Assembly (NCBI GenBank): GCA_029817715.1
Contig: JARUPY010000290.1
Location: 1,736,001-1,800,000, forward strand
Source of the DNA: Melastoma dodecandrum
Taxonomy: Eukaryota > Streptophyta > Magnoliopsida > Myrtales > Melastomataceae
Reading direction: 5' to 3'
DNA length: 64,000 nucleotides
Shown: one piece after another, positions 28,778 through 63,453 of the stretch
Numbering within the stretch: the stretch's first letter is position 1
Layout: each line of letters begins with the position of its first letter
Translations under genes and position numbers: made by a program
The notes under the pieces: generated by a model
Database searches by the model: none
What the model saw: only the letters and a program-made list of their open reading frames with translations
Told to the model about the DNA's origin: nothing

Positions 28778-28809
<32 letters not shown>

Positions 28810-29166
28810 AAGGAAGGAGAAGGATTCTTTCTATTTCATTAATTATTCACTCTGTCGATTACACTGTATATATAATACTTTGTTTGTAACAATAATCAGA
28901 ATCTCGGGGTCGAGGTTTGTTATAGCAGCAGCAGCAGCAATCCCAACTCCTTTCTGTTTGTTTGCTGCAGATGAAATAGAAAACCCCAGCAACAACCTTC
29001 TCAACAGTCTTTGTCTTATTCTACCGATGGGCTGGGCTTGCCGTGGGCCGGAGGCTCCTCATCCTCATTTATTCCGACACTTCCCGTCAAACTGAGCTTC
29101 TCTTTAAGTCTGTTTTCTTTGTTCCCCAGTCTTACCTTTTCATCCTTAATATCAGACTGAGCAACA
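28711..29166 (-). repeat. 5' LTR of the second copia element
   Basis: A 456-bp LTR, TG to CA, carrying the element's own promoter region (TATATATAATA near 28867). It is flanked by CCGAG on the outer side. Confidence 0.92.
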
Positions 29167-29230
29167 CCGAGGAAGAGGAACTCGCGGCGGCGGCTGCATC
29201 ACCCGTCAATTCCCCCAGTCCGCTCACCAT

Positions 29231-42759: not shown

Positions 42760-43563
42760 TGTTCACGTAGAAAACGGACCACGTCGGAAATATTTGACAA
42801 TTGGACTCACAGGGAAATATATGTGGTCGCCAGAAAGATGAATTTCAATGATAAATAATATGACTGTACAAATTCAGAGTTTTGAAAGATAAATTAGAAT
42901 CTTACAGCAATAAAAATGAGCGAAAAGAGAGGTGAAACGGTTGACGTAGGCGTCGTAGACTCGCTGCTGACGTCGTAGACTTGCTACAGTGCGCTGCGCC
43001 GTAGACTCGTGTGACGGTGGAAGTGCTGGCGGAAGGTTGTTGCCCCGGTTACGGTTGCTCGCCGGGACGGTGGAAGTGCTGGCGGAGGATGATCACCAAA
43101 GCTACGGTTGCTTACTCTGATGTTGAAGGTAATGACCAGATAACCCAGGTCGGGGTATCTACTACAATCTAAGGGTGACAAGCAATGCAAATCTGTGTTT
43201 GGCTGATTGATCGTGATTTTCCTAAGGGGGATCTGTTTCTTTTATACTGAATTTTACTTGTCCTACACGCTTCACACGTCCTCACAACGATCCTCCAGAT
43301 CGTGGCTCGATCTTAACTTCTCTCCAAGAATCTCGGAGTTTGTTTTAAAATATCCCTCTGATTTTCTGAATTGTGTGTTGGGATCGTGTGTGTGGGATCG
43401 TGTGAGCGTGTGTTCAGGCCGTAGACTTAGCTCAGGCCCAAGACATCCCGTAGTGCCAACATGTTGACGTAAGCTGTAGACTTAGCTCAGGCCTGCATCC
43501 CACGTCGGGCTTTTCTGGGCTCGTAGACTTAGCACAGACCCAAGATATTCCGTAGTGTCAACA
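42760..43563 (-). repeat. 3' LTR of the gypsy element
   Basis: 804 bp with 1.4 copies of a 53-bp GACGGTGGAAGTGCTGGCGG unit (from 43013) and six GTAGAC motifs, three of them in GTAGACTTAGC(T/A)CAG repeats near 43420-43540. Confidence 0.93.
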
Positions 43564-43566
43564 TAA

Positions 43567-43580
43567 GTCCCCCCTTTTTG
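43567..43580 (-). promoter_or_regulatory. Polypurine tract of the gypsy element
   Basis: On the minus strand AAAAAGGGGGGACTT ends three bases before the 3' LTR TGTTGACAC. Confidence 0.75.
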
Positions 43581-43748
43581 CTGAGGTGACTTCTGTCGCC
43601 TGAGCACAGTTGTCTGCTTCCTGGTTTAAAAGGAAAACGTTTCGTTTCCCTCCTTTCACTTGCGACGTACGTATTAGCCTTATTTTCCTCGTAATCTTGC
43701 TCTTCCCGAAACCCTAGCCTTCTTCTTAGGAAAAACTTCTCTTCGATC

Positions 43749-44705
43749 ATGTCGAACCTTGCTTCTTTCCAGTGGCACCAGCAACGCGCTGGCCCTTCCG
43801 GCGTTGTCCAGACTTCAGACGGCAAAGGCCTAACCCTGGGTCCCATTCTTGACTCCGCGCTCTTCCCAGACCCTGTTCCTCACGAGTTTCTGATCACGGA
43901 GTACCAAATCCCTATCTGCCTGGAGGGTCTCATCGACCCACTTGGCTGAGAGAAGAAGAGTGGCTTCCTGTGCTTCCCTTCTGTGGAGAAAACCCTAGTA
44001 CGGGAGTGGTTCTCCCGTTGGCAAGAAAGACTAGAAAGCAAGCTGAAGGTTTGCGGGATTTGGACCTTCCTGAAGCTGGTCGCAAAGCACTGTGACCCAC
44101 AGGTATGTGCCAGTCTCCTCCCCTTCTGGAATAGTTCAGTCAACTGCTTTTACTTTTCAGAAGGCCCAATGACTATCACATTGGAGGATGTTTATTTCTT
44201 GACGGAGAGTTATGTAGCTGGGACTCCCGTTCGCCTTTACCCCTTGGACAGCGATCATAATCCGTCAGGGATGCTCCAGATTCTGGATACAGCGACAAGG
44301 CATCTCCAATTACTCAAAGGCCGCCCTCATTCTGCTTGGGGAAAGGCTGAAGAAGTGGAATTCTTCAGTGTGTGGCTGAGCAAGTATGTATTCTGCTTTC
44401 CTGGCAAGAGGGTGCCAAAGTTGGTTTACGGAATTGCCAACTTTCTGAGTAATGCTTCCAGCAAGGTAGCTTGGGTGCCCTTCTTATTGGGTCTTATCTG
44501 CCAGAGCTTGCATAGGAATAGTTCCTGCACGAGCCCCTTCCCCAAGTATCCGGCTGGTGGCCTTCTTTGGCTCGTGCATCTGTGAGCTTGCACATGGATG
44601 CCAGGACTTACAGGGTACCAGATGCCCTCTGGTGCTATCAAGGTCGGCTGCTATGGGACACATATGCTAGAGGCTTGCTGCTACAACAAGAGCCAGTGGT
44701 TGCAT
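43749..44705 (+). pseudogene. Antisense ORF, plant mobile domain (PMD) protein, 5' part
   Basis: Runs opposite to gag-pol, from the ATG at 43749 (MSNLASFQWHQQRAG). The frame is open but for a TGA at 43947 and continues through EKTLVREWFSRWQERLES, KVCGIWTFLKLVAKHC and CFYFSEGPMTITLEDVYFLT, the hallmark of the plant mobile (aminotransferase-like) domain. Another break near 44583 shifts to a frame reading SLHMDARTYRVPDALW. The coding is cut at 44705 by the 2.6-kb insertion and resumes at 47303. PMD proteins occur both as host genes (MAIN/MAIL1, silencing and meristem maintenance) and inside transposons; antisense extra ORFs are known from Tat-type elements. Here it is degenerate. A separate host gene capture cannot be excluded, but its position between pol and 3' LTR fits an element-encoded gene. 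Confidence 0.72.
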
Positions 44706-47297
44706 TGTCATAACCAATTTTCTAAAACTAATCACTAAAAATAATAAGATTACCAAATAAAATAAAATTTCTCAAAATCGGTATTTACAAAGAAATAAAA
44801 TCAAATCAATTAAAGTGGAAAACGTGATATTATATTGCAAGAAATAAAAAGAGCAAAAGACCCTACAAAAGGGAGAGGCTTTGAAAGAAAAAAGAGAAGA
44901 GAAAGAAAAAAAAACAAAGGCTTCGTCGTCAAAGACGCTCGACGACTCCGTCTGCTACTTATGTTACTCGACAATTTGTAACGGCGGCGTCCACGGCATC
45001 CATCAGCCGCGAACGCTAAATATAAAACAATGGCAAGCCGAAGCGGATTGGCGAGGGACTCAGCATTACCCGACCTGTCATGATCGAAGGGGGCTCGTTC
45101 TGATTCATTCCCCACGAGCAACGGTCATCTCAATGGAGCACGAAGATTTTCCTGCCGCTGCACGGAGCAAAATCCCATTTGCCCACAACTCGACTCCATC
45201 AGCAAGCGGGCGCCTACTCGATCTTGGCTCCAACCAATAGATGCCGTCCCGGCTCAGCCGACACTCCCAATTACTGGCGCATTCCCCAGCAAAGAGTCAG
45301 CTGCTCCTTCGAACAGCAGCAAAGCCCGTACCGGCTAGGAGACAGTTCCCTTCGTCATCATCGGCCAACAACAATCACCCCCAATCCAACTCCAGAGGCA
45401 GATCAATGACCATCGCCACCAAAGTCAAGGAATCCCGCAGATTCGTCGACCCGTCCAAGTCAGGGCCTTCCCCGAGCCAGGCGACTACACCGAGGCCCCT
45501 AAGGCGTACCCTCCCTCCGGTCTTGGTTTCCTTGAACCCACGACAAAGGTCCGAATCCAGCTGACCCACACCCCAGGCTCGGAGATCCTGGCTTCGTGAC
45601 CGCATCCCCAGTCATGTTGCTTACACCTCCCTCGGCGACTTCTCCTCCGCTCTCTCCGATGCCCAGAAGACCCTCGGCCTCAAGGATTACTCCGCCGCCT
45701 TCGCCTGGGACCACAGCGCCTTCGCCGATCCCGTCCTCGTTACCGCCGCGGCTGCCAAAGATGACTCAAAAGCCGACGCCGATCTTCCTCCGCAGGGAAC
45801 GCCTCCGACTCCGACGTCGGCCCCATCACCACCGATGGAAGGATCGGCCCTCAATACCACTCCCAACGCCGCCTCCTATCCTGGCCCCATCACCTTCAGC
45901 ATGTGGCCGCCCTCGCAGCGTACGCTGGACGCCGTCATAGCGTGCCTGGTAGAGACGCTTTCCACGCCCTCCGTGCTCTCGAAGCGTTACGGCACCCTTC
46001 CCCAGGATTAGGCCTTCAATGCCGCCGGGGAAGCGTCCACAGCTGCCTCCCATCGTGGCGCTTCCCGCCGACGAGAATCCTCGCAGCCATCTCCCATCTT
46101 GTAACACGCCCTTTCCCCTTTCTGTGCGATGAACGGTTTTCAATTTTTAATTTTTATTTATTTATTATTATTCATTATTTGTTTAATTGCATTTAGCGTT
46201 GTTGCGTGCCTTGCGTGCGAAGATTTTTGCAATTGAAAAAAAAAATCTCTTTTTGTTGCTTTTGGGGACGCATTCCATTATGGTTATGTTTTATTATTAT
46301 TATTATTATTATTTTAGATTTTAACTTAATAACCTGTTCATGGTGTGGCTTGTCTTTTAAAAAAGAAATCATTTTAATTATTTCCTCCACACTTTCAAAA
46401 TTTATTTTCTTAAAAAATATTTTCAACCTCTTTTTAGTTTGTTTCTTCTCAATTGACTTATAACATACGATTGTTTTAATCATTACCGGTCGGTAATTAT
46501 AGTTGCATGCATGGAGTTTATTGCAAGTTCTCTTTCACCAAAATAACTCCTACAATGTTATAATTAATCCCATTTTAATCCATTTTCGAACAGTTTACTT
46601 TGTTTATCCGATATTTACGCAGACATCTCGGGGGCGTGCCTTGCGGACAACCAAGGCACGCACCTCACTCAACGTATTCAAGATTACGAAGTATTCGAGG
46701 GGTTATTTGGATTCTCGAAGATCAAGACCATTTAAAGACGGCTTCGCACTCACCAACGTTACGGCATCAGCGGCTCGCCAGGTTCACCGTAAACCTATTC
46801 TAAAAATGGTACCGTGAGGTATAAACGCTAACGGGAGCGTGCTATGAAAAGCAAGCAATGATACAAATACCCGATTCTCCATTGAATTTATTTTTTGGCT
46901 TAGAAACTGTTAAGGGTATTAATAAATCTATAATTGTTTGCATTTTTGCCTCAAAATCAACTTTCAAGAAATATTTTCTAAAAATGATTGACGTAGACAT
47001 TATAAGCATTAATGAGCTCGAGATCATTCTTTTTATATATCAATTAACGTTTTTTTCTAAAACCGAGCTCAAATAAATCGGACATCGGAAACAAACGATT
47101 AAAGCCTCCCTTTTCTTTGTGATGCATGCGATTTAGTAATCCCTAATTCCCGAACCATAACGAATCTCTACAGTTTTTCTAACTTGAACTTAAAATAAGT
47201 TAGTGGCGACTCCTTTACATTTTCAAAATTCGAAGCCTTATCGTCAAGAGAGGATATCCATTTTAAATTGAACCGAAAACGGGATCCACCCGCGACA
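44706..47297. mobile_element. Solo-LTR-like insertion (2592 bp) in the PMD ORF
   Basis: Begins TGTCATAACCAATTTTC and ends CCACCCGCGACA (TG to CA), flanked by perfect TGCAT duplications (44701-44705 and 47298-47302). Removing it with one TGCAT restores the PMD coding line across the junction (VVACFNDRTYEAY). No second copy of its ends, no primer site and no gag-pol were seen inside, so it behaves as a solo LTR or a non-coding element of a gypsy type. The outer parts are AT-rich (44706-44900 and 46130-47297), while 44920-46120 is GC-rich and contains gene-derived sequence. Near its right end TTAGTGGCGACTCC resembles the tail of many plant gypsy LTRs. Confidence 0.83.
45595..46104 (+). pseudogene. 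Captured WPP-domain (MAF1-like) gene fragment
   Basis: An open frame through 45601-46008 carries SYPGPITFSMWPPSQRT (WPP at 45904-45912), then LVETLSTPSVLSKRYGTLPQD, which is the WPP domain of MFP1 attachment factor / WPP proteins of the plant nuclear envelope. In the family the next residues are an EA..ARxIEEE helix; here a stop (TAG, 46009-46011) is followed directly by AFNAAGEAST, so a short internal deletion removed that helix. The frame ends at 46104. The part upstream (YTSLGDFSSALSDAQKTLGL, from 45620) is clearly coding-like but I do not recognise it; it could be a second captured gene. Codon use and GC content contrast with the AT-rich element around it. Confidence 0.68.
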
Positions 47298-47302
47298 TGC
47301 AT

Positions 47303-49330
47303 GCTTCAATGACAGGACATATGAGGCATATCGCCGATACTGGACGTGGGGAACGCCGTAATTGGGCTCCGTTCCCTACCGGCCACCCTGTTCTCAAGCG
47401 CCGAAGAAAGGTTGTACCATGCATACATTGGGACTCTGTCTGACCAGTAGGGACCTGGTGTGCGCCACAGAGTCAGGCTTCGGTTTTGAAGTCTACAATC
47501 CCCAGCCCTGCGCAAGGCAACTGGGCTTCGTCCAAGGCTCTGCAATCCCTTTTTCCGATACTTTCAATGTCCCAATCCATATCAGGAATAGCTGCGTTTT
47601 ATCAAGGGATTCTTTCCAAGCCTCCTTGGTCCTCTTATCGAAGAAGACAGAGCTTCAGCGTATGGAGTTTCCCCTTGAGAGCACTCCAGCTTATGCTACT
47701 GAAGCTTTCTCCATTCAGTGGGCGCTCACCTTTAGAGCCCTTCGCGAAAGGATGACTTTCTTTGAGACTTCTGCTGAGCCAGACCTTTACCTGTCTACTG
47801 ACATGATGCTGAAGTCTGGTCAGAAGCTTATCATTGGTAAAAGTGGCTATATATGTTCTAAAAGAGTCTTATGTCCCTGTATTGGAGTATTTCCTCTTAA
47901 CCTTTATAGTTATGATTACAGATTCTGGAGATTCTTCCCCTGAGAGGAGCTCTCCTCCCCAGGCCAGTTGCTCGGCTCGGCGACAACAACTTTCTGCCAT
48001 CAAAGGCAAAAAGCCTAAAGTCGAGGGGCAGCCTTCGGGGAAGCTTAGGAAGCGCAAGCGCGGGATCGTATCCTCGTCATCTTCTGACTCGGAGAATACT
48101 CCGATATCCAAATTGCTGAGGCAAACTCAGCTGGTCTCCTGAGGGTCTGGTTCTACTTCCTCCGGGACCCCAAGGTTGTTGTTGACTCAATCTACGAGTC
48201 CCCCCTAAAAGTATGTAATACTCTTTCTATTCCTTTTTTGAAAACCAAGAACGCTTACTGATTCTTATGATGTTTTGGCTTTCTTTTTTAAACAAGAGAT
48301 GATGGCTCTGGTGCCTGTAGCTTCTCCTGCGCCGGAGACTTCGATAGAGCCTGAGAAAGAGGTCAGTCTCTTCCTATTAACGTTTTCGTCCCCTGTTTCT
48401 GTTTCTAATGTTTAGCATGTTTTCTTAATCCACAGGGTGTCTCTCCTCCTAGCCCTCAAATCCCGACACTCGGGGAGGAGGATGTTGTCATCATTGATGC
48501 AGAGGTTGCAACGCCGGAAGAAACAGGCGCTCCTGAAGTCAACCCATATGTTGCTGCAGCGCCAATGACAACCCCGTATGCGGCAGAAATTGCGGTTCCA
48601 GAAAAGGTTGGTACCTTGGGAGTCGACCCTGATGACGCTGCGCAACCCACTGTGGCAGAAGCTATTCCTCTCTCCTCACCATCACCAAATGTGCCTACTG
48701 GAGAGGGTACCTCAGGCTGCCTCAGCGCTTATGACCAACTGGTGCGAAATGTGGATCGTATCGGGGATCTTCTTCTTCTCGACAAGTTTTCTGAAGTTCA
48801 ATTTAAGGAACTTCAGGGTCTGGTCGATGAAGTAGAACGCTCCCCGGTGGCCAACATCCAGATGCAGGCCGCTTGTGAGGACTTCCGGGCGCAATTTTGG
48901 ACCGAATGGACAGCCTACCAAGCAGACTTTCAAGCGTTTGACGACACTACGTCCAGGATTGCCCAAGGACTCCAATCTCAGGAGGAGGAAGCAGCTGACA
49001 TCAAGCTACTTGAGGGTCAACGGAGTGAATTATCTTCCTAGCTTTCACAAGTGCAGATAAGAATTAAAAAACTCTTGGGCTATGAGGCCGATTTCAAAGA
49101 TCGGATCAGCACGATTGGCTCCCTGCTCGATAATCGCCCTACTCAAGCCTCTGCTCAGCAACACCAAGATGAACTAAAGTCCTGGTATCGCCAGTAGAAC
49201 GAGCTGACTATGAAGCGGACCCGTGCCAAGGCTCTTACTTTCTTGTTTGTGGAGGCTGTTAGCTCATTGCCACAGTCCGGCACTAGGACACTGCACCTAC
49301 GAGACTTTGCTCGTAGAAGAGTTTGATGTT
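47303..49330 (+). pseudogene. Antisense PMD ORF, 3' part, with probable introns
   Basis: Continues the PMD protein after the insertion: CFNDRTYEAYRRYWTWGTP, a stop, then an open frame 47362-47943 including YNPQPCARQLGFVQGSAIPF, typical of the PMD C-terminal part. Next come a Ser/Lys/Arg-rich block (47930-48142, GKLRKRKRGIVSSSSSDSE), a likely intron from about 48361 (GAG|GTCAGT) to 48435 (CCACAG|GGT), a Pro/Ala-rich acidic stretch (48436-48700), and a helical coiled-coil-like region (48715-49320, YDQLVRNVDRIGDLLLLDKF). Stops at 49039 and 49197 break the last part. The layout is of a multi-exon gene with nuclear-type basic and coiled-coil C-terminus, now decayed. Confidence 0.6.
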
Positions 49331-49454
49331 AAAAGGAGTTACCCCTCCTAGGCGACCTGCATTTTTGTTTTCTTGCAATCCTTTTGTTTTCACTTGTTCG
49401 CTGTAGACGATACTCTGTGCGCAAGTTCACAGGTCTACAGCTGTGTAGACGCCC

Positions 49455-50501
49455 TTAAGACTCCTTTCTTTGCACGATTTCTTTCGTGATGGCCGGGAAA
49501 CGCTTCTCCAAAGTTCTTTTGTGAGATTCCCATATGGTCTTCTTATACCGTTTTAGGAATTTTCCGTTAATTTTTAAAGGTTGCTTAACACCTTCGAGGG
49601 TCGACAACCTATAACTATTCGTTAAATAAGCCTCGACTACTCGATACGGTCCTTCCCAATTTGGAGACCACTTTCTCAAAATTTGGTCTTTTGCCTTTAA
49701 AGGTAAAACCATTTTCCAAACCAAATAGCCAACGTGAAAGTGTTTATGAATTACTTTCTTGTTGTAGTGCCGGGCTATCCTCTGTTTATGCGCTTCTAGC
49801 TTGTCTACTACCTCTAACCTCTTCTTTTCTAGTTCTTCCAAGGCTATATGCATGGCCTCATCTTGTAGGCAAGGCTGGGCGACACGAAGCGACTTATACT
49901 TCATTTATATGGGCAAGATTGCATCATGGCCGTAGACTAGCGCGAATGGGGTTTCTCCGGTACTGTCGCGTTTAGTGACCCTTAAGGCCCATAATGTGTC
50001 TTGTAATATATCATGCCATTTTCTCGGGTTACATCCAATCATTCTTTGGATATTATTTTTAATCAATTTGTTGGACGCCTCGGCTTACCCATTTCCTTGG
50101 GGATAATATGGAGTAGAGTTCGAAATTGAGAAACCGAACTCTTCAGCGAATCCTCTTGCCTTAGCATTGTGGAAGGCCATCCCATTGTCTACCACAATAT
50201 TCTGAGGGATACCAACTCGGTAAATGATATTGGTCCTCAAGAAATCAATTACTTCACTGTGATCAATTTTCCTGTAGACTTGTGCTTCCACCCACTTAGT
50301 GAAGTAATCGGTTGCTACTAGTGTGAACGCGCCTCCCCGACTAGAATGGGGATGAATTTCTCCTATTATGTCCGGGGCCCAAGTCCTGAAAGGCCAAGGT
50401 TTGATTATGGGGGTGAGATCTGCTGCCGAAGCACGGGTCGACGGGCCATGTCGCTGACAATCTTGGCATCCCTTAGCCATTTCAATGCAATTTTTCATCA
50501 T
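49455..50501 (-). pseudogene. Gypsy integrase
   Basis: Minus strand: MAKGCQDCQRHGPSTRA (end of the HHCC finger), then FRTWAPDIIGEIHPHSS (first catalytic Asp), LVATDYFTKWVEA, IPQNIVVDNGMAFHN (second Asp) and SNSTPYYPQGNG, where a stop at 50085 interrupts before the catalytic Glu. The C-terminal part resumes at 49904 (AMHIALEELEKKRLEVVDKL) and includes KVIHKHFHVGYLVWKMVLPL and KWSPNWEGPYRVVEAY (the GPY/F module) to 49455. DDE integrase of Ty3/gypsy type; it is broken and so inactive. Confidence 0.88.
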
Positions 50502-50607
50502 TGATGGCCAATAAAATCCATGTCTATGGATAGTCTAACACATTTTGACCCCTGACTGGTGTGAGCCACAAAGACCTTCATGAGTTTCTAGCATTATTGG
50601 AGTAGAT

Positions 50608-51360
50608 TCATCTAAGTCTACGCACCTCAAAAGAACTCCGTTTGCGTCCTTCTTGTAGAGGGACGTCATCTAAAAGGATGTATGTCAATGCTTGGACTCT
50701 AATCCGTTGTATAACCTTTTGACTCGGATCCGACAAGAAATCTACGATTGGTTTCCTCCAATCTTCCTCTCGGTTCATGATGTCTACAGCCATGACGTCA
50801 CTTCTTGGCTGTAAATGAGAGTCCATTTCCGTTAATTCTCCTGGCTTGGTTTTTATCCTATAACCCGAGGTTGATTGTGCCAAGCTGTTGGCCACTCTAT
50901 TCTCGTCACGATTTACGAAATGGAAGGCTATGCTTTCGAATTGTGTGACTAGCCCTTGAACAGTTTCAAGGTATGGTCGCAACTTCTCTTGACATGAACA
51001 TTCTCCGTTTACTTGGTTGATAACCAGCTGGGAATCTCCTCTAATTCGCGCTCATTTCGCCCCCAGCAATAGAAGCTCTTTTAACACTGTTATTAACGCT
51101 TCGTACTCAGTGGCATTATTTGTCAACGACGTTCATAGACGAAAAGCCAGCCTAATGTTTTTACCCATAGGGGACATTATATGGATTCCTATCCCAGTTC
51201 CATTTTTTGTAGATGAGCCATCGAACCATGCCTGCCATATTTCTTCGATCCTTTCTTCTTGGTCTATTGACTGGGCGGGATCATGATCGGCTAGGAAATT
51301 GGCTAGCGCTTGCCCTTTAACTGATTGCTGCGACTTATACCTTAAATCGTACGGGGACAA
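50608..51360 (-). pseudogene. Second (archaeal-type) RNase H domain of Tat lineage
   Basis: Minus strand: QAWFDGSSTKNGTGIGIHIM (RVT_3 start with its catalytic Asp), then NNATEYEALITVLKELLLLG, RGDSQLVINQVNGECSCQ and HFVNRDENRVANSLAQ. This is the extra RNase H found after the normal one in Tat elements such as Ogre and Retand. Frame breaks occur near 51130 and 51050. The linker to integrase (SDVMAVDIMNREEDWRKPI) is also present. Confidence 0.82.
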
Positions 51361-51381
51361 AGTCAGACTCCATTTGCTGAT

Positions 51382-52744
51382 TCATCCGACTAGTAAACGG
51401 CTTTCGAAGAAGTATTTGATTATAGGTGACTTAGAAACCACGTAGACTTCTTGGTTCCCGATGTAGTGCCTGAGCTTCTTTATGGCGTAAAATATCGATA
51501 AGCATAGTTTTTCTTTAGATGTATACCTGACTTCAACTGGGGTTAATTGTCTTGATAAATAGTAGACATCTCTTTCATGCCCGTTTTCATCTACTTGTGC
51601 CATCATTGCACCTATAGTCGTTCCGGTAGCCGCTACGTAGAGGATAAAAGGTTTCCCTTGTTGAGGAGGCATTAAGACCGGTGGGTGCGTCAAACATTCT
51701 TTCAAAGCATTAAACGCTTCTTCGTGTTCTTCGGTCCACCTGTAATCGTTTTTTCCTCTCAGGAGGCTAGCGAAAACATCTGTTTTTCCCGCAACATTTC
51801 GAATGAACCTACGCAAGTAATTAACCTTTCCCAAGAAAGCTTGTTGCTCCTTTTTGCTCCTTGGGGCCGGTAGGCTCTGAATGGCTTTTACTTTGTTTTG
51901 ATCGACTTCAATACCACGTTGATGCACTAAGAAACCCAAAAAATGCCCTACCTTAACTCCAAAGGCGCACTTTAGAGGATTCAGCTTCAATTGATGTTTC
52001 TTCATCTTCATGAAGGCGTTTCTTAGATGTTCGATATGTAGTTCTTCCTTCGTCGACTTGACTACTATGTCGTCGATATAGACTTCTACCGTTTTTCCTA
52101 GACAAGCGTCGAATATAGCGTTCATCGCTCTCTGGTATGTAGCACCAGCATTTTTCAACCGAAAGGCATCACCACCCATTCAAAAATGCCTAAAGGGCAC
52201 CTGAATGCTGTTTTGTGAATATCTTCTTCTGCGATGAAAATTTGATTATAACCCGAGAAACCATCCATGAAAGACATGACTTGGTGGCCCGCGGTTTATC
52301 TATAAGGTCATCTGCGACGGGCATAGGGTATTCATCTTTGGGAGTAGCGCGATTTAGATCTCTAAAATCTATGCAGACCCTAATTTTTCCATTTTTCTTT
52401 AAGACCGGTACTATATTAGAGATCCACTCCGTATAACGTGACGTTCTTATATACCCTGCTCGAAAAAGTTTTTTGACTTCCTCGAAAACTAGATGCGTTA
52501 CTTCTCTAGACATATGTCTTGGAGTTTGTTGAACTGGTTTGAAATCCTTCTTGATGGATAGAGTATGTTCTACCAGTTTACGATCTAGCCCTGGCATTTC
52601 AGTGTAGTCCTTGGCGAAGCAGTCTCTAAATTCTTTGAGTACGTCCTTGATTGATTCAAAGAATTCTTTATTCGCAGACGAGCTGATAAAAAGGTTCCTA
52701 GGAGAAGACTCACTACCTACGTTGATACTGACCAAGGGGGTCAC
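51382..52744 (-). pseudogene. Gypsy reverse transcriptase and RNase H
   Basis: Minus strand: LDRKLVEHTLSIKKDFKPVQ, EVKKLFRAGYIRTSRYTEWI, RVCIDFRDLNRATPKDEYPM, then a frame break at about 52190-52300 in the FSGYNQI region, FRLKNAGATYQRAMNAIFDA, VYIDDIVVKSTK (the YIDD active site, about 52075), NPLKCAFGVKVGHFLGF, and the Ty3 RNase H (PFILYVAATGTTIGAMMAQV, VEVRYTSKEKLCLSIFYAI). These are all standard gypsy blocks. The domain order with protease upstream fits a fused pol. Only one or two lesions are seen here, fewer than in gag. Confidence 0.9.
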
Positions 52745-52932
52745 ATGGGGTCAACAAAGACTCCCGATGCTCGCTACCACCTAAACTGGTAGACACGGGC
52801 TTATTACATGCATCAGGCGCTCTAAGGCCCGCTGAGTTTATTGATAAAAATGACGTAGACTGATCCTGAGGACGTCCTTCCCTGTAGACTCGGAGCCGCT
52901 GGAGGACATCAGCGACTGCCGCATTTTCCTTT

Positions 52933-54564
52933 TCACTCTGGTCCATAAGTCCCTTCTTTGAAGAGTCTGTCGGGGTTCTGCTGGCTTTCCAAGGCTCCTT
53001 CTCCTATGTGGCCATTCGTGCTCCCCTCAGCAGGGTTCTCCCCTGAATTGACTTCTTGCAGGACTTCTTCTATGTCCTTATCAGTGAACTCATCTCCCCA
53101 TCCTGTTGGAACAATCGGGCTGGACTCTGGCTTGGGGTGCGATGTCCCGTAGTCTACAATATAATCGAATTTCCCGGAGGGCTGACCAAGGGGACCGACC
53201 GTAGGATCACCCAACTCATACCGCTGATGCAGGGTCAGATCCTTGATAGTCTTGCTTGTTTCTGCATGCAAAACAACTTTGTCACAACAGGAATACGCAT
53301 CGGCTTTCACAATCTCAATTTCAGAGTCAAGCCACAATATTAGCTCCCTATGTAGTGTAGACGGGATGGCGGCGCGCCCTAGTAAGGCATTGAACGTGGG
53401 GGTTATGTCTATTAGGAAAAAGGCAGTTTCTTTCTCCTGTCGCACTACTCCCAAATGTACGGAGAAGACTCCCAGGCATTCGGACTTCCTGCCATTAAAA
53501 CCACTCACCGCGATATCGGTTTTAACCAAATCATGAAGTTTATATCCAAGCATTCTAAACTTGGATAGATGCAGTACGTTTATAGTGGCTCCGTTGTCTA
53601 CTAAGACCCGACTCATTAAAGTACCATCGAAAATAGCAGTAATATACAAGGAGTGCATATGCTGCTTCATGCTATCTGAAGGCTTTCTTAGCGAATGAAG
53701 TGAGAAACCAGGCAGGTAAGGCGAAAGCCGGGAGAGAGGTGGCTTACCTCTTGGAGCTTCCTCGTCTTTTGCTTTGGCAAAGTCTACAGGCAGAGTAATG
53801 ATATTGCAACTGACAATCACTTGTTTTCCGCCATTAACGTCACTCGGGAGTTCACTCCGAAGGGGGGTGTAATCAAAGCTTGAGCCTGGCTCCTCCGAGT
53901 GATCCGTAGACTCGATGCGCTCAGCCCCCCTATTTGGTTCCTTTATGCGCGTCTTGGTAGGCGAGACTGCCTCCGACGGGGCGGGCCTAGGTCTCTTTAT
54001 GACGTGGTTTAAACGTCTATCCCTCCTTTTCCGAGCCTGTAGTGGCAAACTCGCTCTGCCAACGGCTCTCTGCCAAAATTTTGAAGGGTTAACCGCCCTG
54101 ACCATCCTTGATTTCTTAGAATCAAGTAGGGTTCGACATACCTCCACGAAGTCTTTAGCGACTGGTTCGTATCCCAGGACCGTGCGCGTTGCATCCTGTT
54201 GCATTTTTGAATGGTGCAAGAGGTCATGATTACCTGTGGTCACAGGGTGAGCAGGCTGGACTATGATCTCTCCATTTGCTGATAAGTCTACCAGCTTAAG
54301 GAAGTAGTCTACGCAGCATGCCGTACAGAGCTGTGTGATTAGGATCCTGTTTCGCCCTATTAACTTGCACTTCCGGCACAGTACTTTCTCATCCAGAAAT
54401 TGGGCTATTGCCGGTCCCATCCGGATTGCCTGAGCATCTACTTTGTGCATTCCATACCTCAGTTTAGGGCCTCTTCTCTGCGCCTCGTTGAGTTGCTCCG
54501 CTTTATCAGGTGTGTTTGCTTCTAAAGCCTTCGGATGTGTTTCGTTAGTGCGACCATTGTCCAC
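52933..54564 (-). pseudogene. Gag-pol linker with aspartic protease
   Basis: A 543-codon open frame. Its first half contains VLCRKCKLIGRN and TACCVDYFLKLVD; the protease motif is MSRVLVDNGATINVLHLSKF (residues about 335-355, with Asn-Gly in the D(S/T/N)GA motif), followed by FLIDITPTFNALLGRAAI and HRELILWLDSEIEIV. The sequence is typical of long Tat-type protease regions. The first start is not ATG and it is probably continuous with gag upstream. Confidence 0.82.
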
Positions 54565-54699
54565 TTGCTTCGTCCTCTGCTGGATTGACGGGTCATCAAA
54601 ATCTAAATGTCGCCTGGGGTGCTCTACAACACGGGTTTGGTGTTCGGGTGCTCTGCCCGGACCGTGAGGACCACCTCTTCCTCCTCGGATTGTCGGTCT

Positions 54700-56765
54700 G
54701 CGCTCTAGACTTGGAGGGCTCTTGAGTTTCCTCTGTAAATTGTTCGGGGGTAGTCATGCCCCTGGAGAGCTTATTCCCATCGCAACCTCTTCCAGAGGGG
54801 TCAGGTCATACCAGGTGTCACCCTGGTTGTTTTGCAGGTATTTCCTAAAAGTGTTGCACCTATCGGTGGTATGCGTATCGTCCATGTGCCAGCAGCAGAG
54901 GTTTCCAGCGATTGCCTTAGCTGGGCAGGTGATCACCCCCTTGTCTGCCAGTCTACGAAACAGGGCATTTGCTACCACGGTTTCTCCAGCTACCTTCGTA
55001 CCCTGTAGAGAGAAACTGGTATCAGCTTCTATAAGATTTATGTCTACATCAGAAATGTCGAACATATGTATAGCGACTTCATCATCAAAAGGCCTGTCGT
55101 CGACCATAGTGACCTCGTCGACTTCCGGGAAGCATAATTCTTTTGCCTTTATAAGGTCTTGAATTATATTCCTGAATGACAGACAGTCCCTGGTCGTATG
55201 CCTAAACGACCCATACCACTTACAATAATTCCTAGATTTTTCCTTATCTGTCTGAGGGGTTCTATGTCCCGACTTTAGTTTAATTCGTTTTCGCTGGTAG
55301 AGCCAGTCAAAAAGGCTCGCAAACCGTCGCCTCTCCTTTTATAAATTCAGCCATGTCTACCTCAACAGTCTCTAGCTGATAAGTGCGCGTAGACTGGGCC
55401 TCTTCCATTAGCAACTGGTGATATTCAGTCGCTCTCCTGGCGAGATCGTAAAGATCAGCGAACCTTTCTCCCTGCAGTTTCTTTTTGAAGGGGATCGACA
55501 AAGCGTTTAATGCCACCATCAGTTGATCCCTTTCTGAAATTGCTGGTCTACATCGGAGTCGCGCTTTTCGTAGGCGCATCAGAAACTGCCCTGGATGTTC
55601 CCCGGCGGCTTGCTTCAAGCACATAACCTCGAAAATTGACAATGGTGTATCTAGGCGAGCGAATGCTTTCATAAAGCTAGACTGCATTTCCGCTCATGAT
55701 GCCATCGATCCTGGGGGTAGACTAGCATACCATGTAAATGCATCGCCCGTGAGGGAGTTAGGGAACAGCTTTAATTTCCAAAAGTAGTTAGTCGCAGCCT
55801 CCCCAATTTGATGAGTGAACCAAGCTATATGCTCCAGAGGGGTCATTTCATCCTCCCCAGAGAAACGGGTGAAATCCGGTACTCTGTATCCTTTAGGCAG
55901 GGGAAAATCCCTATCAATGAACGCCGGGTAAGGGCTCCTGTAAAAACAGGGGTCGTCCCGTCTAACAGCTCCGAGTACCATCTGTTCCAAGACCTGAGCT
56001 ATTGTCTCCCTCAAATTCGGAGGGGTTGGAAAACCAATTGACTCGCGTGCAGGGTCCTGACCCCACCTTTCGGTGGCGCAAGGTGCTCTTTCACTAGGCC
56101 TCAACGGCTGTGTGTCTACAGAAGGTTTAGTGTAAAAACTTTCCGCCCGAGAAAATCCTCCTACATTTGGGGATTCCCCTGGTGAGTTTTCATCCACGGG
56201 GGCCTTCCCAGGACGACGGGTAGGAAACGAAGGCGCACATCTATTTGTTTAACCCTAGGCCTCATCGTACTCATCTACCGGGTTTACCGCATAGACCACG
56301 TTCTGTATCCATGTCGCGGGCAACCGCGAAGACGTCGGTCTAGAAGGGGACATCCTATCCCTGTTGCTGACCTCTGAAACAAACTGTTTTTCGCGGTCCC
56401 AAGGATCATCCACTTGGAATGACACATTCTTTCTTTCTGCTCGTCGTGCATCTCCCATGTAAGAATGATCTCGGTCTCGGTCTCCTATTTAAGGCGCTGA
56501 TTTGCTCTAGGATCTGAGCCACGTTACTTTCTAGTCTAGAAATACGTCTATCGACCAAGTTTCTCATATCATTGTACTCTTTGTGAAATTCGAGCCTGGA
56601 TATGAATTCGGAGGGTGTATGTGTCCCGAGATCAGTTTGACTGGCATTCGCCTGACTGCTTAGAGTCACATCGTCCGCATTTGCGTCTCCTTCTGCGGGA
56701 ACACTGTCTTCACCTAATGGAGGTGGGGGGTCGCGGCTAACTCCGCTTCTGGTATTTTTTGCCAT
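54700..56765 (-). pseudogene. Gypsy gag, broken
   Basis: The gag start is the ATG at 56765 (MAKNTRSGVSRDPPPPLGE), just inside the 5' LTR. Following blocks in several frames: FPLPKGYRVPDFTRFSGEDE and HIAWFTHQIGEAATNYFWKL (retrotransposon gag domain, 55930-55760), SLTGDAFTWYASLPPGS, SSFMKAF... with EVMCLKQAAGEHPGQFLMRL (55650-55560), RFADLYDLARRATEYHQLL, then KWYGSFRHTTRDCLSFRNII (about 55190, zinc-knuckle-like) and a second Cys/His stretch (LCCWHMDDTHTTDRC, about 54880). Stops or frame changes near 56400, 56225, 55690, 55305 and 54750 prevent a full product. Confidence 0.82.
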
Positions 56766-56799
56766 CAGCAAACGTGAAATATTTTCTTTGCTCCCACTG

Positions 56800-57656
56800 T
56801 GGTCGCGTAGAAAACGGAACACGTCGGAAATATTTAGCAATTGGACTCACAGGGAAATGTATGTGGTCGCCAGAAAGATGAATTTCAATGATAAATAATA
56901 TGACTGTACAAATTCAGAGTTTTGAAAGATAAATTAGAATCTTACAGCCATAAAAATGAACGAAAAGAGGGGTGATACAGTTGACGTAGGCGTCGTAGAC
57001 TCGCTGCTGACGTCGTAGACTTGCTACAGTGCGCTACGCCGTAGACTCGTGTGACGGTGGAAGTGCTGGCGGAAGGTTGTTGCTCCGGTTATGGTTGCTC
57101 GCCGGGACGGTGGAAGTGCTGGCGGAGATTTGTTACCCCGGTTACGATTGCTCGCCGGGACGGTGGAAGTGCTGGCGGAGGATGATCACCAAAGCTACGG
57201 TTGCTCAATCTGGTGTTGAAGGTAGTGACCAGATAACCCAGGCCGCGGTATCTACTAAAATCTAAGGGTGACGAGCAATGCAAATCTGTGTTTAGCTGAT
57301 TGATCGTGATTTTCCTAAGAGGGATCTGTTTCTTTTATATTGAATTTTACTTGTCTTACACGCTTCACACGCCCTCACAACGATCCTCCAGATCGTGGCT
57401 CGATCTTAACTTATCTCCAAGAATCTCGGAGTTTGTTTTAAAATATCCCTCTGATTTTCTGAATTGTGTGTTGGGAGCGTGTGTGTGGGATCGTGTGAGC
57501 GTGTGTTCAGGCCGTAGACTTAGCTCAGGCCCAAGACATCCCGTAGTGCCAACATGTTGACGTAAGCTGTAGACTTAGCTCAGGCCTGCATCCCACGTCG
57601 GGCTTTTCTGGGCTCGTAGACTTAGCACAGGCCCAAGATATTCCGTAGTGTCAACA
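56800..57656 (-). repeat. 5' LTR of the gypsy element
   Basis: 857 bp with 2.4 copies of the 53-bp unit (57053, 57106, 57159) and six GTAGAC motifs. Otherwise near-identical to 42760-43563, pointing to a recent insertion despite the broken reading frames. Confidence 0.93.
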
Positions 57657-57930
57657 CCTTCACCACCATGTAATCCCTCGAAATCAAAACCCGGTTTCAA
57701 CATTCCTTCCTCACTTTCTGTCAGTGTCTCTTCCCTAGTGAGGGCAGAGGAAACGAGGAAGGACATCAATCGGGCCCCCACTCGTTTCGAGGAGGGAACG
57801 AGCAGGGTGGCGTAACACGGAGGGGATTGGGGAGTGAATCGGGATGAGTTCGAGAGACAGTTGGGTTATTCTCTCCTATGTGAGAGAGGCTCATGCCCGT
57901 GTTTTTTCATACGGATAAAGCCCGAAGCCC

Positions 57931-58134
57931 TCAATATTCTCAAGACCTTTGGTCTTCACAACCTTTGATATTCTCACCAACCTTAGATATTCTCGAGACC
58001 TTTGTCTTCCCGACCTTTGGTATTCTCATGACCTTTGGTCTTCTCGACCTTTGGTATTCTACTAACCTTTGGTCTTCTCAAGACCTTTGGTATTCTACTA
58101 ACCTTCGATCTTCATGAGACCTTTCGTCTTCTCC
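57931..58134. repeat. Minisatellite with unit CCTTTGGTNTTCTC-
   Basis: About nine to ten imperfect units of 20-24 bp, alternating CCTTTGGTATTCTACTAA and CCTTTGGTCTTCTCAAGA forms. It lies just upstream of the GGPPS pseudogene start. Confidence 0.8.
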
Positions 58135-58219
58135 TATTGTGCGTATTAATAAAGCACATGACATTGTAAAGAAAGACAATGATCATTCGACAAAAAAGTA
58201 GCAAGGTGAGGGGGAGATA

Positions 58220-58471
58220 ACCAGAAGGAGAAGTGATTCCGGATTTTCGCCTTTGCTTAGTTCAGCCAGCGAGACGTTCATAGCCGGAAAGAGAAGTGAT
58301 CCCGGATTTTCGCCGTGGCTTATTTCAGCCCGTTCGACGTTCAAAGCCGGAAGGAGAAGTGATTCCGGAGTTCCGCCGTGGCTTATTTCAGCCCGCATGA
58401 AATTCATAGCCGAAAGGAGAAGGAGATTCCGGGATTTCCGCCGTAGCTTTGTTCAGCCTGCACAATGTTTA
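58220..58471. repeat. Four-copy 63-bp tandem repeat
   Basis: Units start at 58220, 58283, 58346 and 58409, each exactly 63 bp, with the core GGAGAAGTGATTCCGGATTT and GCCGTGGCTTATTTCAGCCC. Being a multiple of three, both strands stay open across the array (a 21-residue repeat such as RSDPGFSPWLISARSTFKAG on the plus strand). No gene features flank it. 58472-60100 shows no recognisable gene. Confidence 0.9.
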
Positions 58472-60119
58472 CTAAAATGGGAGTTGTCGTCGACGGCACC
58501 ACTGAAACTTCATGAAATTTTGAGGGAGATTCCTGACTCATAGTTCTTTATGTTGAACGGTGGAGATTGCCATTGAAGTTTCGTATCCGGCGTTACTGCC
58601 CAGTTTCTGATTCGACCATATTCTGGAGTTGTCAATTTCAGTTTCTTCTATTTGAATTGTTAGGCGTATGATTACCAAAATGAGTTCTTCATGTTACGCT
58701 GAGTAGAGAAGAGGTTTATGTGCTGACTACTATTGCTTGAGAAGAACACTTATGTACCCACTTCATTGGTGTTGTAGTGGAAGTTTTGGTAGTGCATCGG
58801 GCCGTGGTTTTATTCCTCATATTGATGAGGTTTCCATGTTAAATTTTGATGTTGTCCTTGCAGTTGATTGCTTGTTTTCGCTGTGAGCATTTTGTTCTAG
58901 CCTTTAGGAAGTCATTTGACTAATTTCGATGTGTGTTAGTTCGTGTCACATCCCATCAGAGACTTCGATGGTATTCGCAAGCGGCCATGATCTCAAGCTG
59001 ACGAGTCTTATACCTCCCAATCAGACAAATGACGACCCCTCCCTGAAGGTAAGGGATAAATGTAGGAACGGAATGGATTTGAGGAGTGATACGGGAAATG
59101 TGTCGGTGGGGATGTCGGAGAGAATATGCCTTGCAAAAGTGGAAAAAAATATTTTTTGAAATAGGGTGATATGTTTTAAAATTTCTAAAATAGTATTTTT
59201 AATCGAGTGTTAGTAATCTCAAATTCACCTTAAAATTTTGAGAAATTTGGTGTTAACACCGAATTTTCTCCGAAGGGGCCGAATTCTTGGTGTTTCAAAC
59301 ACCGAAATCTTCACTTTTTTAGTTAAACTAAGTATTAAAAATATCAAATTCTTTACCAATCGAATATAATGTTTTAACACCAAATTAAGGGCATGAATTT
59401 TGAAAATTATCGTGCTATTTTATGAAATATTTTACCGTCGAATATTATTTTAGATCATAACCCTGTCGAAGGTGCAAATGTTTGGATTAAAATGAGGAGG
59501 GAGAAAAAATCATGAAAATAATTTCTAAACAATAGGAAAATGCGACTTTCTATTAAGAAAAAGGTATTCTTTTTTTCTTTACATTTATATCTTTAATTAC
59601 TCCGTCTATTTTTAATATGACTCGTATTAGATGGATTCCGTATAATTGCCTGACGTGGATTAAACGAAGTTCAACGTGGCTTGCTCTTTTAGATGTCAAC
59701 CTGGAAATTAAATTCATCTTCGGACATGGATGAATTAATAGGCAGTTAGAGAAGTGTTATTCCCGAAATGCCCTGATCATATGACATGCCCTAATGGAAG
59801 CCGAGACCATCCGGGGAAGACGGAAGAGTGACAAATCGAAAGTCCCGAGAGCCATAATTGAAGGTAGGTGACAATCTCTTTGTAATTGAAAATAGTGAAT
59901 GTGAATGCAACGAAATATTCGTGAACTCTGTTGTTTCGAGCTCGAGCGTGGGAATGAGAGTTTACAATCAACGACGGGAGAGTTGCATTGTACAAATCAT
60001 TTGTAATTGCATCTAATTGATGTTAATAATGGTTTTCTTAATGAAGATTTGTAAGAAGAAGTCCATATGTCAATTCCTCAGGATTGGAGTTGCTTACTAC
60101 CTACCGCAAAACTGAATAC

Positions 60120-61107
60120 AAAGGGTTTGGTTTGCAAGTTAGAGAATTCTTTATACAGCTTGAAAAAAACCATACGACAATGCAATTTGTAAGCTCATTG
60201 CTTGCATTTTACAAGTTGGTTTTATGAAGTCTTTTAAGTGTGATCATTTTCTTTTCAAAAGACATGATTCTAAAGCTTTTGTGGTTGTTCTAGTTTACGT
60301 CGAGAACATAGCCGTAGCTAATGATGATCAATATGTTATCCCGTACTTTTATTTAGTTCAGGAACATTCATTTTAAACTCAAGGATCCAGGTACATTGAC
60401 TTTATGGGATATGAATAAGCCCGATGTAGTGAATAAATGTTATATCTCAGTGCAAGTATGCTCTTGACTTGTTGCAAAGACACTGGTTTTTTTTTTAGGT
60501 GTTAAACCAAGTTTCATTCTCATATTTTCCAAACAATAAGCTAATTTATGTTGGAAGCCCATCCTTCCTCTTATTTGTGGTTGGTACTCGTCCTAATATT
60601 AGATGTCTTTTTTATGTCCTTACGCGAGCAAACCAGGTAAGGCTCACATGGATGGAGGTTGATTATAAGGTACTTGGCTATATCAAAGGCTCCCCTCCTG
60701 GTCCGGGCTGGCTACCCGGACAGTAGGCGTTCTCTTACTAGATATTGTGTATGCCTTGAAAAGTCTTTTAATAAAGAGCTGACTACTATTTCTACAAATT
60801 CAACTGAATTCAAGTATCGTGGACGGCTATGGCATTAACCAACCTATTGTGAGCTGGATTGGTTTAAAAAGTTTTGGCAAGATTTTCATAAGGATCGGAT
60901 TCATCATCCCACCTGCTCGGTTATTTTATGATAACCAATCAATCTTAAACATAGCAAAAAAAAAATCCCATTATAAGCACGTGAACATTGATTATGATTT
61001 AATTAGAGATAAGGTGCAAGATTGTTCTTTTTGTATTGGATATGCACACACCAGTTATCAAGTGGCTGATTTTGACAAATGTTAAAAACATTCACATTCA
61101 TCTTGAA

Positions 61108-61110
<3 letters not shown>
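60120..61110 (+). pseudogene. Degenerate copia reverse transcriptase/RNase H remnant
   Basis: Plus-strand pieces in several frames match copia pol: GLVCKLENSLYSLKKTIRQ (family VCKLxKSLYGLKQA.RQW), FVVVLVYVENIAVANDD (family VLVYVDDI, with the catalytic second Asp changed to Asn), GTRPNIRCLFYVL, and RLFYDNQSILNIAKKKSHY with HVNIDYDLIRDKVQD (RNase H end). Stops and indels are frequent. It ends near 61085, with a poly-G tract where the polypurine tract should be. Confidence 0.75.

Positions 61111-61141
<31 letters not shown>
61111..61141. repeat. Poly(G) run of 31 at the polypurine-tract position
   Basis: TCTTGAAGGA is followed by 31 G. In copia elements a TTGA(A/G)GGGGG tract sits here, directly before the 3' LTR, and GTTTAAAGATG follows as a possible LTR start with its T lost. 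The run seems to be a slippage expansion of that tract. A 3' LTR would then occupy about 61142-61600, but I could not fix its end. Confidence 0.6.
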
Positions 61142-61143
<2 letters not shown>

Positions 61144-61599
61144 TAAAGATGATGGAATGGCATAAGATTGAAATTTTTGAAGTTGTTTAGCTGGTTAAGT
61201 TATTACATGACAATTTTATTATTAACCCTTGGTTAATTGTTCTACAAATAAGTTGTAAAACTGATTATTTAGAAACAGTGAAAAGGGTTTAAAAAAACAT
61301 GCTATGTTTTCCTCCTCTCTCGTCCCCGATTCGGTCGGTTCTTTCCATTTCCTTCGATTTCCTGGATCTATGTCGGTAAACATAGCAGAAGCAGAAGGTG
61401 GTTGATTAGTAATATGGGCCAAATTGTAAACCAATGTAGAACGGGCTGTGGTTAAATCCTGTAACATGGGATCATGATGTTTTTCTGTAATGGGATCAAA
61501 GCCTTGTAATAAAAGGCTTGCACAAAATGTCGTGTGCGGTTGAACAATAACAAAATTTTATTTTTCTCTACTCGATTGTTTCTCTTAGATCGTCACTCC

Positions 61600-63200
61600 C
61601 CATCATCTTCACGGCACCTCCGGTCTTCTTCAACAAGGAAAATGCAAAAGGAACTCGAGGGTGACGTCAACCGGTGGTAGGACATGAGAGAGGGGTGAGT
61701 TTGGGGGGCGATTGAATTCACCACCAGCCATGAGCTCAAGCAAGCAAACCTCATGTCACCATGCCAGCGAATCTCGTCCCTTTTGGTCGGGAAGGGGAGA
61801 GTAAAGGTAGGAACTTTGAGGCAAGGGAGTGGATTTGGGTAGTGAAATGGGAAATGCGTCCGACCGTCGATCGAATGACTGTGGAGGACAAATGTTTCTG
61901 TTCGAATGAGGAGGAATGGCGGGAACGCCATCTATGGAAAGATGAAAGCAATGATAGGAGTTGTTGCGGATCTGTTTGGGATTCAGGACATAGTATTTTC
62001 TTTCTTTCTCCTCTTGTGTGATTTTCATCCCAGCAGGAAACACTGGTTTCCTTCCTCTCTTCTCATCATGTGTCTAGTAGATACGGAAGAGGAGAAGAGG
62101 GTCCATCTGGGGGATTATGCCCCAGAGCCGAGCGCCGTGACGGGAAGAATTCCTCCAGTTCTTTCTGATGGTGCAGGACGATGAGCTTGTGCTACGATGT
62201 ATGTCCAAGAGTGACTCAGTGCAACAGGAGCGGATGGGCGATATTAGCCTGACCTGACCCCGAAGCACATGTAGTTGCTTGGAAACGTCACGGTCCTTTT
62301 GGATAACCGAAGCTGCATGCACATATAGATACAGGAAGTCGAGATAGTTCATGACACGACCCTAAAGCTTCGGCTCAAATTATTATTATAGTTTTGCTTG
62401 ATAAAGGTATGGTCTATTTTAACATAAAACCAAATGAGGGGAAGAAGAGTTGTGGTCCTGTTGAGTTCACCTGGGGAGACGACACCTGTCCGGGCCATGT
62501 TAAATTGAAGTTATATGGCCGACATGTCATTTTCAATTCTCCAACAGCCTCCTCTTTTCTAAGGGTGGGAAAAAGGATTCGAGGGTCAAGCAGGAGATAA
62601 TGACAACACAGGCGGCTATGACATTTTTTTAACATATAATTAACATAATCACCAATTAACTTGGAGCTTTTCTTTCTAGAAAGTCGAGTGACCTCCCCTA
62701 GGTTAGCTAAAAAGAGACGAAGAGGGTTTGTATAAGACGCGAATGGCATGGCAATGTCAATCTGCGTTTACCTTCTCTCTTTCTTTGCCCCCATTTTGTT
62801 TAAGTGCAGAGGAAGGGAAACAAAACTTAAAATGACAAGTGACAGAAGAAGAAGGCGGAATATGAACACTCCCATTTTCCTGTCCACACACAGACACTTT
62901 GTGAGAGTTTGGCCCCCCCACAACTGACCTTTGTCATAATCTAAGCTGCATTGTCGTCTGCATCGTCACTTCCGGGGACCAACTACTGCTACTACCAGAA
63001 TGAACGTGATAAATATACAATACTTATTGAAACTATGTCTACAACTCAAAGTTTGCGAATTCCCATACGAAGGAATGCGCAACCCCTGACGTAATCTCAA
63101 GCCTCCCCTCAATTATATAGAAAGAAGAGAGGGAGAGAAGGGTGACGTGAGAAAGAACCCCAAAATAAAGGGTTTCGGTTTACTAATCAAGCTTTCTCGA
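61600..63200. other. Spacer, no convincing gene
   Basis: ORFs at 61593-62184 (both strands), 62074-62352 and 62414-62749 have no recognisable domain. It probably includes distal promoter sequence of the HD-Zip gene at its right end. Confidence 0.4.
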
Positions 63201-63233
63201 GCCACTCATTACCCGATTTGTTTGTGTAACCCT

Positions 63234-63281
63234 TTTTTATATATATATTTCCCCCCCCCCCCCCCCCCCCCCCCCCCCGCC
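63234..63281 (+). promoter_or_regulatory. TATA-like sequence followed by poly(C) of 28
   Basis: TTTTTTATATATATATTT (63234-63250) is followed at once by 28 C (63251-63278). It lies about 175-220 bp upstream of the HD-Zip ATG, so it may be part of its core promoter. The C run could form an i-motif or, on the other strand, a G-quadruplex. Confidence 0.5.
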
Positions 63282-63453
63282 CAAAAATCCAAGGGCAATT
63301 GCGCCATTTAACACGCAATCATATGGTTCCTCCTCCCTTCTTCTTCATTGAGTCTATTTAATATTGGACAAGCCACACTCGACCCTGTTTGTATCTTCTT
63401 CCTTCGGCTTGCTCTTCATACTCCCACCACTTCATCTCCCAAGGTAATCTCCA

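Follow-up and report, generated by a model that had tools for sequence, protein, structure and literature searches.

The array of short motifs considered here has its closest described counterparts in the VANDAL elements, Mutator-like transposons of Arabidopsis in which motif arrays are paired with anti-silencing VANC proteins (Hosaka 2017 PMC5735166; Sasaki 2023 PMC10398659). In the portions of these two papers that were available, the motif takes the form YAGTATTAY and motif evolution is reported for non-coding DNA. Our subject is a 64,000 nt stretch of Melastoma dodecandrum DNA (contig JARUPY010000290.1, positions 1,736,001 to 1,800,000; the window), where a long terminal repeat (LTR) retrotransposon of 14.9 kb, on the minus strand at 42760–57656, carries many dispersed copies of the hexamer GTAGAC (complement GTCTAC) and an antisense gene for a plant mobile domain (PMD) protein. 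The PMD occurs in transposons and in host silencing genes of flowering plants, and its molecular role is treated as unsettled in the literature as far as consulted. A preprint reportedly describes modules of PMD proteins and DNA motifs that oppose Polycomb silencing.

Short motifs have been connected with host PMD proteins in the DOWN system, in which MAIN, MAIL1 and PP7L are linked genetically to a promoter motif that in the MORC1 promoter reads CATGCAGTTT, direct binding being left open in the available text (Nicolau 2020 PMC7156037; PMC9899485, 2023). Among transposons, PMD-A clades encoded by gypsy elements have been described, and an anti-silencing role was speculated for the PMD captured by Mutator-like elements (Ikeda 2017 PMC5418596), while 57 % of Ogre elements are stated to carry a PMD (Neumann 2019 PMC6317226). 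In Retand, antisense TRP28 open reading frames (ORFs) are predicted to be DNA-binding, and repeat arrays are reported in about half (Vicient 2025 PMC11963269, available portion). Among the titles and opening lines of abstracts listed in searches of the open-licence PMC literature, none described an array of the kind seen here in an LTR retrotransposon.

In the gag-pol region of the window element (49381–56800), 13 copies of GTAGAC and 15 of GTCTAC were found. The total of 28 compares with 2.54 expected under a dinucleotide model (P 6e-20, top-ranked of all hexamers); a trinucleotide model raises the expectation to 3.65 (P 5e-16). Chance was rejected. Each LTR holds six more copies, all in a single orientation. 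The initial annotation had given approximately 28 copies in gag-pol, in both orientations, and six per LTR, and its counts and positions were correct. The parts of the element that hold the array are as follows, with all hexamer positions on the plus strand.

56800..57656, minus strand: 5' LTR, six GTAGAC (56995, 57015, 57041, 57514, 57569, 57616)
49381..56799, minus strand: gag-pol, over which the array is dispersed; GTAGAC at 49403, 49445, 49932, 50274, 51442, 51562, 52789, 52855, 52884, 53357, 53906, 55389 and 55717; GTCTAC at 49433, 49803, 50187, 50616, 50782, 53152, 53596, 53782, 54286, 54307, 54951, 55042, 55355, 55546 and 56114
42760..43563, minus strand: 3' LTR, six GTAGAC in the context (C/T)GTAGACT (42955, 42975, 43001, 43421, 43476, 43523)

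The two LTRs differ at 29 of 804 aligned bases. The word is exact, as one-mismatch variants are near background, the commonest being ATAGAC (8 against 3.2 expected). Spacing of the gag-pol sites is random (coefficient of variation 1.03) and regular spacing was rejected on this ground; satellite repetition was rejected because the sequences flanking the sites differ, and protein repetition was also rejected as the source of the excess.

Outside the element the excess disappears. The remainder of the window contains 14 sites in 1–42759 (11.8 expected) and one in 57657–64000 (1.5 expected), and a block of approximately 2.5 kb nested within the element has a single site, at 46993, so that the hexamer is indeed scarce in the nested block and rare elsewhere in the window, as previously claimed. 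When 7.4-kb windows were slid over the DNA outside the element, the top hexamers were repeat-like or low-complexity words. The DNA used as negative control was that of the flanks, of a single copia-type element and of five loci with PMD genes of a different kind. Across 14 stretches outside the elements there were 38 sites against 46.4 expected, a sum over 14 of the 18 rows of the control table that leaves out the copia row (nested in another row) and L124, L126 and L128 (fetched for holding the motif) and includes the C118 row, though it was fetched for a motif cluster. Absent from the table are the L140 element, a solo LTR in C49, the flanks of C95 (itself a copy of C49) and 792 bases to the left of C274, where there are five sites. 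The copia-type element (window 23609–29167) has 2 sites against 2.2 expected; its LTR pair is 93.7 % identical and it has Pfam matches to GAG-pre-integrase and integrase.

The claim that protein constraint does not explain the hexamer was examined in the window element with a codon-preserving null covering nine gag-pol ORFs (1840 codons, 5520 bases). Expected counts were obtained analytically by averaging over synonymous codons, weighted by their usage in the same ORFs; since the sites themselves contribute to that usage, the null is conservative. Nineteen of the 28 gag-pol sites lie inside these ORFs against 4.21 expected (P 1e-7, rank 1 of 1849 hexamers), and all five stop-avoiding frames are separately above expectation, hence the claim stands for this element and the excess persists under the codon-preserving control that the initial annotation had proposed. 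The other nine sites are in the approximately 1.9 kb not covered by these ORFs, some of it perhaps coding sequence that has decayed. Ten of the 19 sites in ORFs encode Val-Asp, and among 204 dipeptides tested in gag-pol none is more over-represented (17 against 6.4); Val-Tyr is without excess (4 against 3.5). The Val-Asp surplus gives the impression of a protein yielding to the DNA word, and the pattern suggests a coding genome that adjusts its codons, and perhaps its amino acids, to retain a DNA tag.

Relatives were sought in the host genome (373 Mb in 607 contigs). Three, C274, C601 and C49, were drawn from the matches to a motif pattern and their site richness is thus partly ascertained. 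C274 is full-length, comprising LTRs, gag-pol and an antisense PMD, and has 53 sites in a 14-kb stretch (5.3 expected, P 4e-34), with 11 sites in the 3.2 kb of its PMD side; the flank preference of its sites leads to an extended form near GYYGTAGACTTG. C601, approximately 93 % identical to C274, has 22 sites in 7 kb (2.5 expected). C49, which includes LTRs and gag to reverse transcriptase (RT), has 16 internal sites (2.5 expected), its two LTRs holding a further 7 and 8. C95 is a 96 % identical counterpart of C49: C49:1-30000 and C95:520001-560000 represent one 30-kb region sharing 96 % identity and the same insertions, and are probably two haplotypes retained in the assembly.

Because these copies were found through the motif, a second sample was taken by RT similarity only, using 19 of 144 listed RT hits that were hand-picked by identity spread, blind to the motif, with 2.4 kb scanned for each. 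All 19 (75–96 % amino acid identity) are above expectation with 3–10 sites against approximately 0.8 each (120 against 15.4 when pooled), and no same-family relative lacking the enrichment, which the initial annotation had named as grounds for refutation, was encountered. Wider collections gave no confirmed relatives: seven stretches in IMG/VR contigs and 33 in GTDB genomes matched but none was confirmed, and among 56 candidates in the protein database no homologue of the PMD ORF was confirmed. An LTR-derived DNA pattern matched at least 120 stretches in viral contigs, which were taken as chance.

Turnover was followed in an alignment of 21 sequences, namely the 19 RT relatives, the window element and C274, with pairwise nucleotide identities of 58–98 %. 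The sites fall at 22 aligned positions. The history inferred for them comprises 37 gains and 19 losses when ambiguous nodes are set to absent, a choice that favours gains. GTAGAC is third by count and fifth by gains among 2063 hexamers, all of the higher-ranked words being made of A and G only. Hence motif positions shift while the excess is maintained, which is what the initial annotation had proposed to look for in aligned relatives.

Individual sites are nevertheless better kept than other words. From the window element to C274, 13 of 26 sites are kept against 16 % for all hexamers (P 5e-5), and from the window element to C49, 10 of 17 against 12 % (P 7e-6); in both comparisons GTAGAC is the best-kept of all hexamers that have ten or more copies. 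At conserved dipeptides, exact codons are retained at seven of 11 motif sites (C274) and five of five (C49), against 24 of 97 and nine of 47 for comparable conserved dipeptides, and per-codon identity predicts 3.7 and 2.7 such sites, respectively. The close copies C274 and C601 share 14 of 19 sites against 63 %, the same decay as any hexamer, as expected of inserted copies under neutral drift. We infer that selection acted during the period of element activity, and the array is almost certainly a selected, clade-wide feature. As such, this exact motif offers a concrete candidate target for the role of the PMD in the elements that carry it.

Pfam matches to RT, RNase H and integrase lie in gypsy order along the minus strand, between the LTR pair, and the element is a Ty3/gypsy LTR retrotransposon. 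An extra antisense ORF, the PMD, sited between pol and the 3' LTR is a trait of Tat (Ogre/Retand) that points to this lineage, and the presence of PF10536 would suit the Ogre branch, judged by domain content. The remaining features, in the order of the element, are listed below.

52933..54564, minus strand: 543-aa ORF upstream of RT, kept in C49 and C274, without a Pfam match
51382..52179, minus strand: ORF with the RT end (PF00078) and RNase H (PF17917/PF17919), by Pfam
50608..50982: ORF between RNase H and integrase, in the slot of the Tat additional RNase H (aRH), by position only
50085..50501, minus strand: integrase core (PF00665), by Pfam
48565..49041, plus strand: antisense PMD gene, piece 3, matched in C274 and in five relatives fetched on the PMD side, not in C49 or C95
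47362..47943, plus strand: antisense PMD gene, piece 2, matched in the same copies as piece 3 and likewise not in C49 or C95
44682..47309, no strand assigned: block within the PMD gene, missing from C274, which aligns on both sides (bounds approximate); probably a later nested insertion, judging from this alignment
43983..44585, plus strand: antisense PMD ORF (PF10536, 4.9e-14), whose stop-to-stop frame opens after the stop at 43947–43949

When set beside the described systems, as far as the available text of the sources goes, the array resembles that of VANC and VANDAL in being a short motif with fast-evolving positions, concentrated in a family that encodes its reader (here a candidate). The element differs in being an LTR retrotransposon with a PMD, having LTRs, RT and integrase in gypsy order, and not a Mutator-like DNA transposon. 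The motif differs too, as GTAGAC is exact, dispersed and randomly spaced, with 19 of the 28 gag-pol sites in ORFs; the clusters in the LTRs have a tandem look. The sequences examined here show no enrichment of VANC motif cores, and identity with the VANC motif was rejected. The interpretation in the initial annotation is partly supported: the array is clade-wide, its positions shift with the excess maintained, and its conservation goes further than coding requires, the PMD being a plausible reader. The DOWN system is similar in that PMD proteins are tied to a short DNA motif, and differs in involving host genes, another motif and no array across a transposon. The gypsy elements with PMD-A and the Ogre elements with a PMD are likewise PMD-carrying Ty3/gypsy elements, and the available portions of the two papers (PMC5418596, PMC6317226) mention no motif array for them. 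Retand shares the position of an antisense ORF between pol and the 3' LTR, but its domain is PF04195 and its arrays are tandem, between pol and the 3' LTR, in place of a dispersed hexamer. A search for PF04195 (Retand TRP28) gave no match in the host genome, nor any in the control genomes.

The PMD protein is the most obvious candidate for reading the array. Among the matches listed (the best 100 of 144 listed RT hits compared with PMD hits among 150 matches), 78 of the 100 RT hits have a PMD hit at most 12 kb downstream, which is antisense in 76 cases, the median distance being 4.2 kb; in one further case the PMD lies upstream. For the sampled relatives within the best 100 the figure is ten of 14. 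All five relatives fetched on the PMD side, from the three main branches of the tree, have a PMD (54–92 % amino acid identity over the first piece), as does C274, also in antisense. On the PMD side a milder excess is seen, with 28 sites against 6.1 in eight stretches, to which the window contributes two.

We propose that GTAGAC, in an extended form close to GYYGTAGACTTG, would be a binding site spread over the whole element by selection, such that a sequence-specific DNA-binding protein would recognise element DNA along its full length. The reader would most likely be the PMD protein from the element's own antisense gene; we put this at about an even chance. Bound at many LTR and gene-body sites, the PMD would guard its family against host silencing, and protection would extend to non-autonomous members lacking the PMD gene. 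The presence of many sites along the element, coding sequence included, fits recognition of the whole element better than a promoter function. The effect would be anti-silencing or transcriptional support, keeping element chromatin expressible; anti-silencing is the best candidate by analogy with VANC, and the exact effect is put forward with less confidence than the identity of the reader. As a whole, the explanation by a PMD reader with anti-silencing is one on which our judgement is evenly divided.

Several findings weigh against parts of this interpretation. The 120 pooled sites are not independent events because the relatives share ancestry, and GTAGAC ranks first in only nine of the 19 RT-sampled stretches and lower in ten, the weakest relative, L176, having three sites (P 0.04). 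Retention between C49 and C274 is weaker, at 8 of 15 and 8 of 13 against 23 % (P 0.01 and 0.004), and there GTAGAC is not the top hexamer. The PMD side of the window element is itself site-poor, with two sites in 3.3 kb. Neither C49 nor C95 has a PMD match, and C49, when scanned, had no integrase match either yet carries the array; its reader would therefore have to act in trans. Co-occurrence does not separate the PMD from gag or integrase as reader, and comparison of the PMD with solved structures gave one weak match (E 0.06). Nor does the DOWN motif linked with MAIN and MAIL1 in Arabidopsis correspond to the word: CATGCAGTTT is unlike GTAGAC and has no copies in the element (TGCAGTT has one against 1.9 expected), and identity with DOWN was rejected. 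Lastly, 47 of 48 sites across seven LTRs share an orientation, and the C601 gag-pol is biased 18:4 (P printed as 0.00), a pattern that would also suit an orientation-dependent role.

The alternative that survives best, though we consider it rather unlikely, is a dispersed enhancer, its sites being bound by a transcription or chromatin factor of the host and the PMD having no relation to the motif. The LTR sites are clustered, co-oriented and at the promoter location, as this would lead one to expect, and the PMD is so frequent in the clade that its co-occurrence carries little weight. An enhancer has no need, however, of randomly spaced sites through several kb of gag-pol, and a host site should recur elsewhere, yet no excess was seen in the outside DNA examined. 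Binding by the element's own integrase or Gag while it exists as cDNA, to mark it as self or to guard against self-insertion, is improbable; it would suit sites that are dispersed over the element in both orientations without excess in the surrounding DNA examined, but we know of no precedent among Ty3/gypsy integrases, no search aimed at one having been made.

A function in element RNA or cDNA (packaging, reverse transcription or export) is quite improbable. The one-way LTR sites and the C601 bias are what it would predict, but the ratios in pol sense are 15:13 in the window element, 14:8 in C274 and 9:7 in C49, none of them significant, and the antisense PMD side of six relatives is also in excess (26 against 5.2). 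The initial annotation had left DNA and RNA side by side; the lack of significant gag-pol bias in these three copies favours DNA, RNA becoming the less likely of the two, and on orientation the array would be read mainly as double-stranded DNA. The one-way pattern in the LTRs may reflect a tandem origin or a directional promoter role. Finally, it is hardly credible that codon usage, mutation bias or motifs in the protein produce the hexamer as a side effect, as the Val-Asp surplus and the ten of 19 ORF sites that encode it are outweighed by the codon null (19 against 4.2), the excess in all five possible frames, the presence of the word in LTRs, its lack of excess in the outside DNA examined and conservation that exceeds amino acid need.

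PMD genes of another kind are present in the same genome, where a search for PF10536 scored 117 of 2691 candidates and gave 139 matches, the PMD of the window not being among them. Five such PMD places that were fetched have no GTAGAC excess (0–4 per 10 kb), and a Mutator-type transposase adjoins the PMD in the two that were scanned, L155 and L156. At four of the five, a different word is packed approximately 0.2–1.3 kb 3' of the PMD, in both orientations.

L156:3501-3926, L157:3492-3819 and L158:6362-6520, 3' of the PMD: arrays of GAAGTCGGCCTT
L155:7056-7372, 3' of the PMD: array of AGGGGCGGGTTTT

In L156, AGGCCGAC has 12 copies against 0.14 expected. These arrays may be lineage-specific motifs for PMD readers, and subterminal repeats bound by the transposase explain them equally well. 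Our broadest suggestion is a tentative and somewhat doubtful one, that PMDs are readers in a widespread tag system of plant transposons with a motif of its own for each lineage (GTAGAC in Tat; GAAGTCGGCCTT and AGGGGCGGGTTTT in Mutator-like elements), of which host MAIN and MAIL1 would be a domesticated form. If so, self-recognition by the PMD would let an element shield its own family from silencing. At the fifth place, a palindromic block (L159:2796-3465), 4.3 kb from the PMD gene, holds 34 of the 36 TAGTACA copies of the locus (1.1 expected) and is probably a separate element resembling a miniature inverted-repeat transposable element.

Window positions 1–1351 together with C603:1728829-1736000 (L140) form an element with 3.3-kb LTRs that are 94 % identical and carry four to five GTCTAC each (1.0 expected). 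An 89-base stretch is 76 % like the LTR of C274, and the element may be a non-autonomous relative. Just beyond the window element, at 58221–58422, a 76-base match occurs three times in tandem with 63-base spacing. The gene for the photosystem II manganese-stabilising protein (PF01716), in keeping with a plant host, is at 18370–19176.

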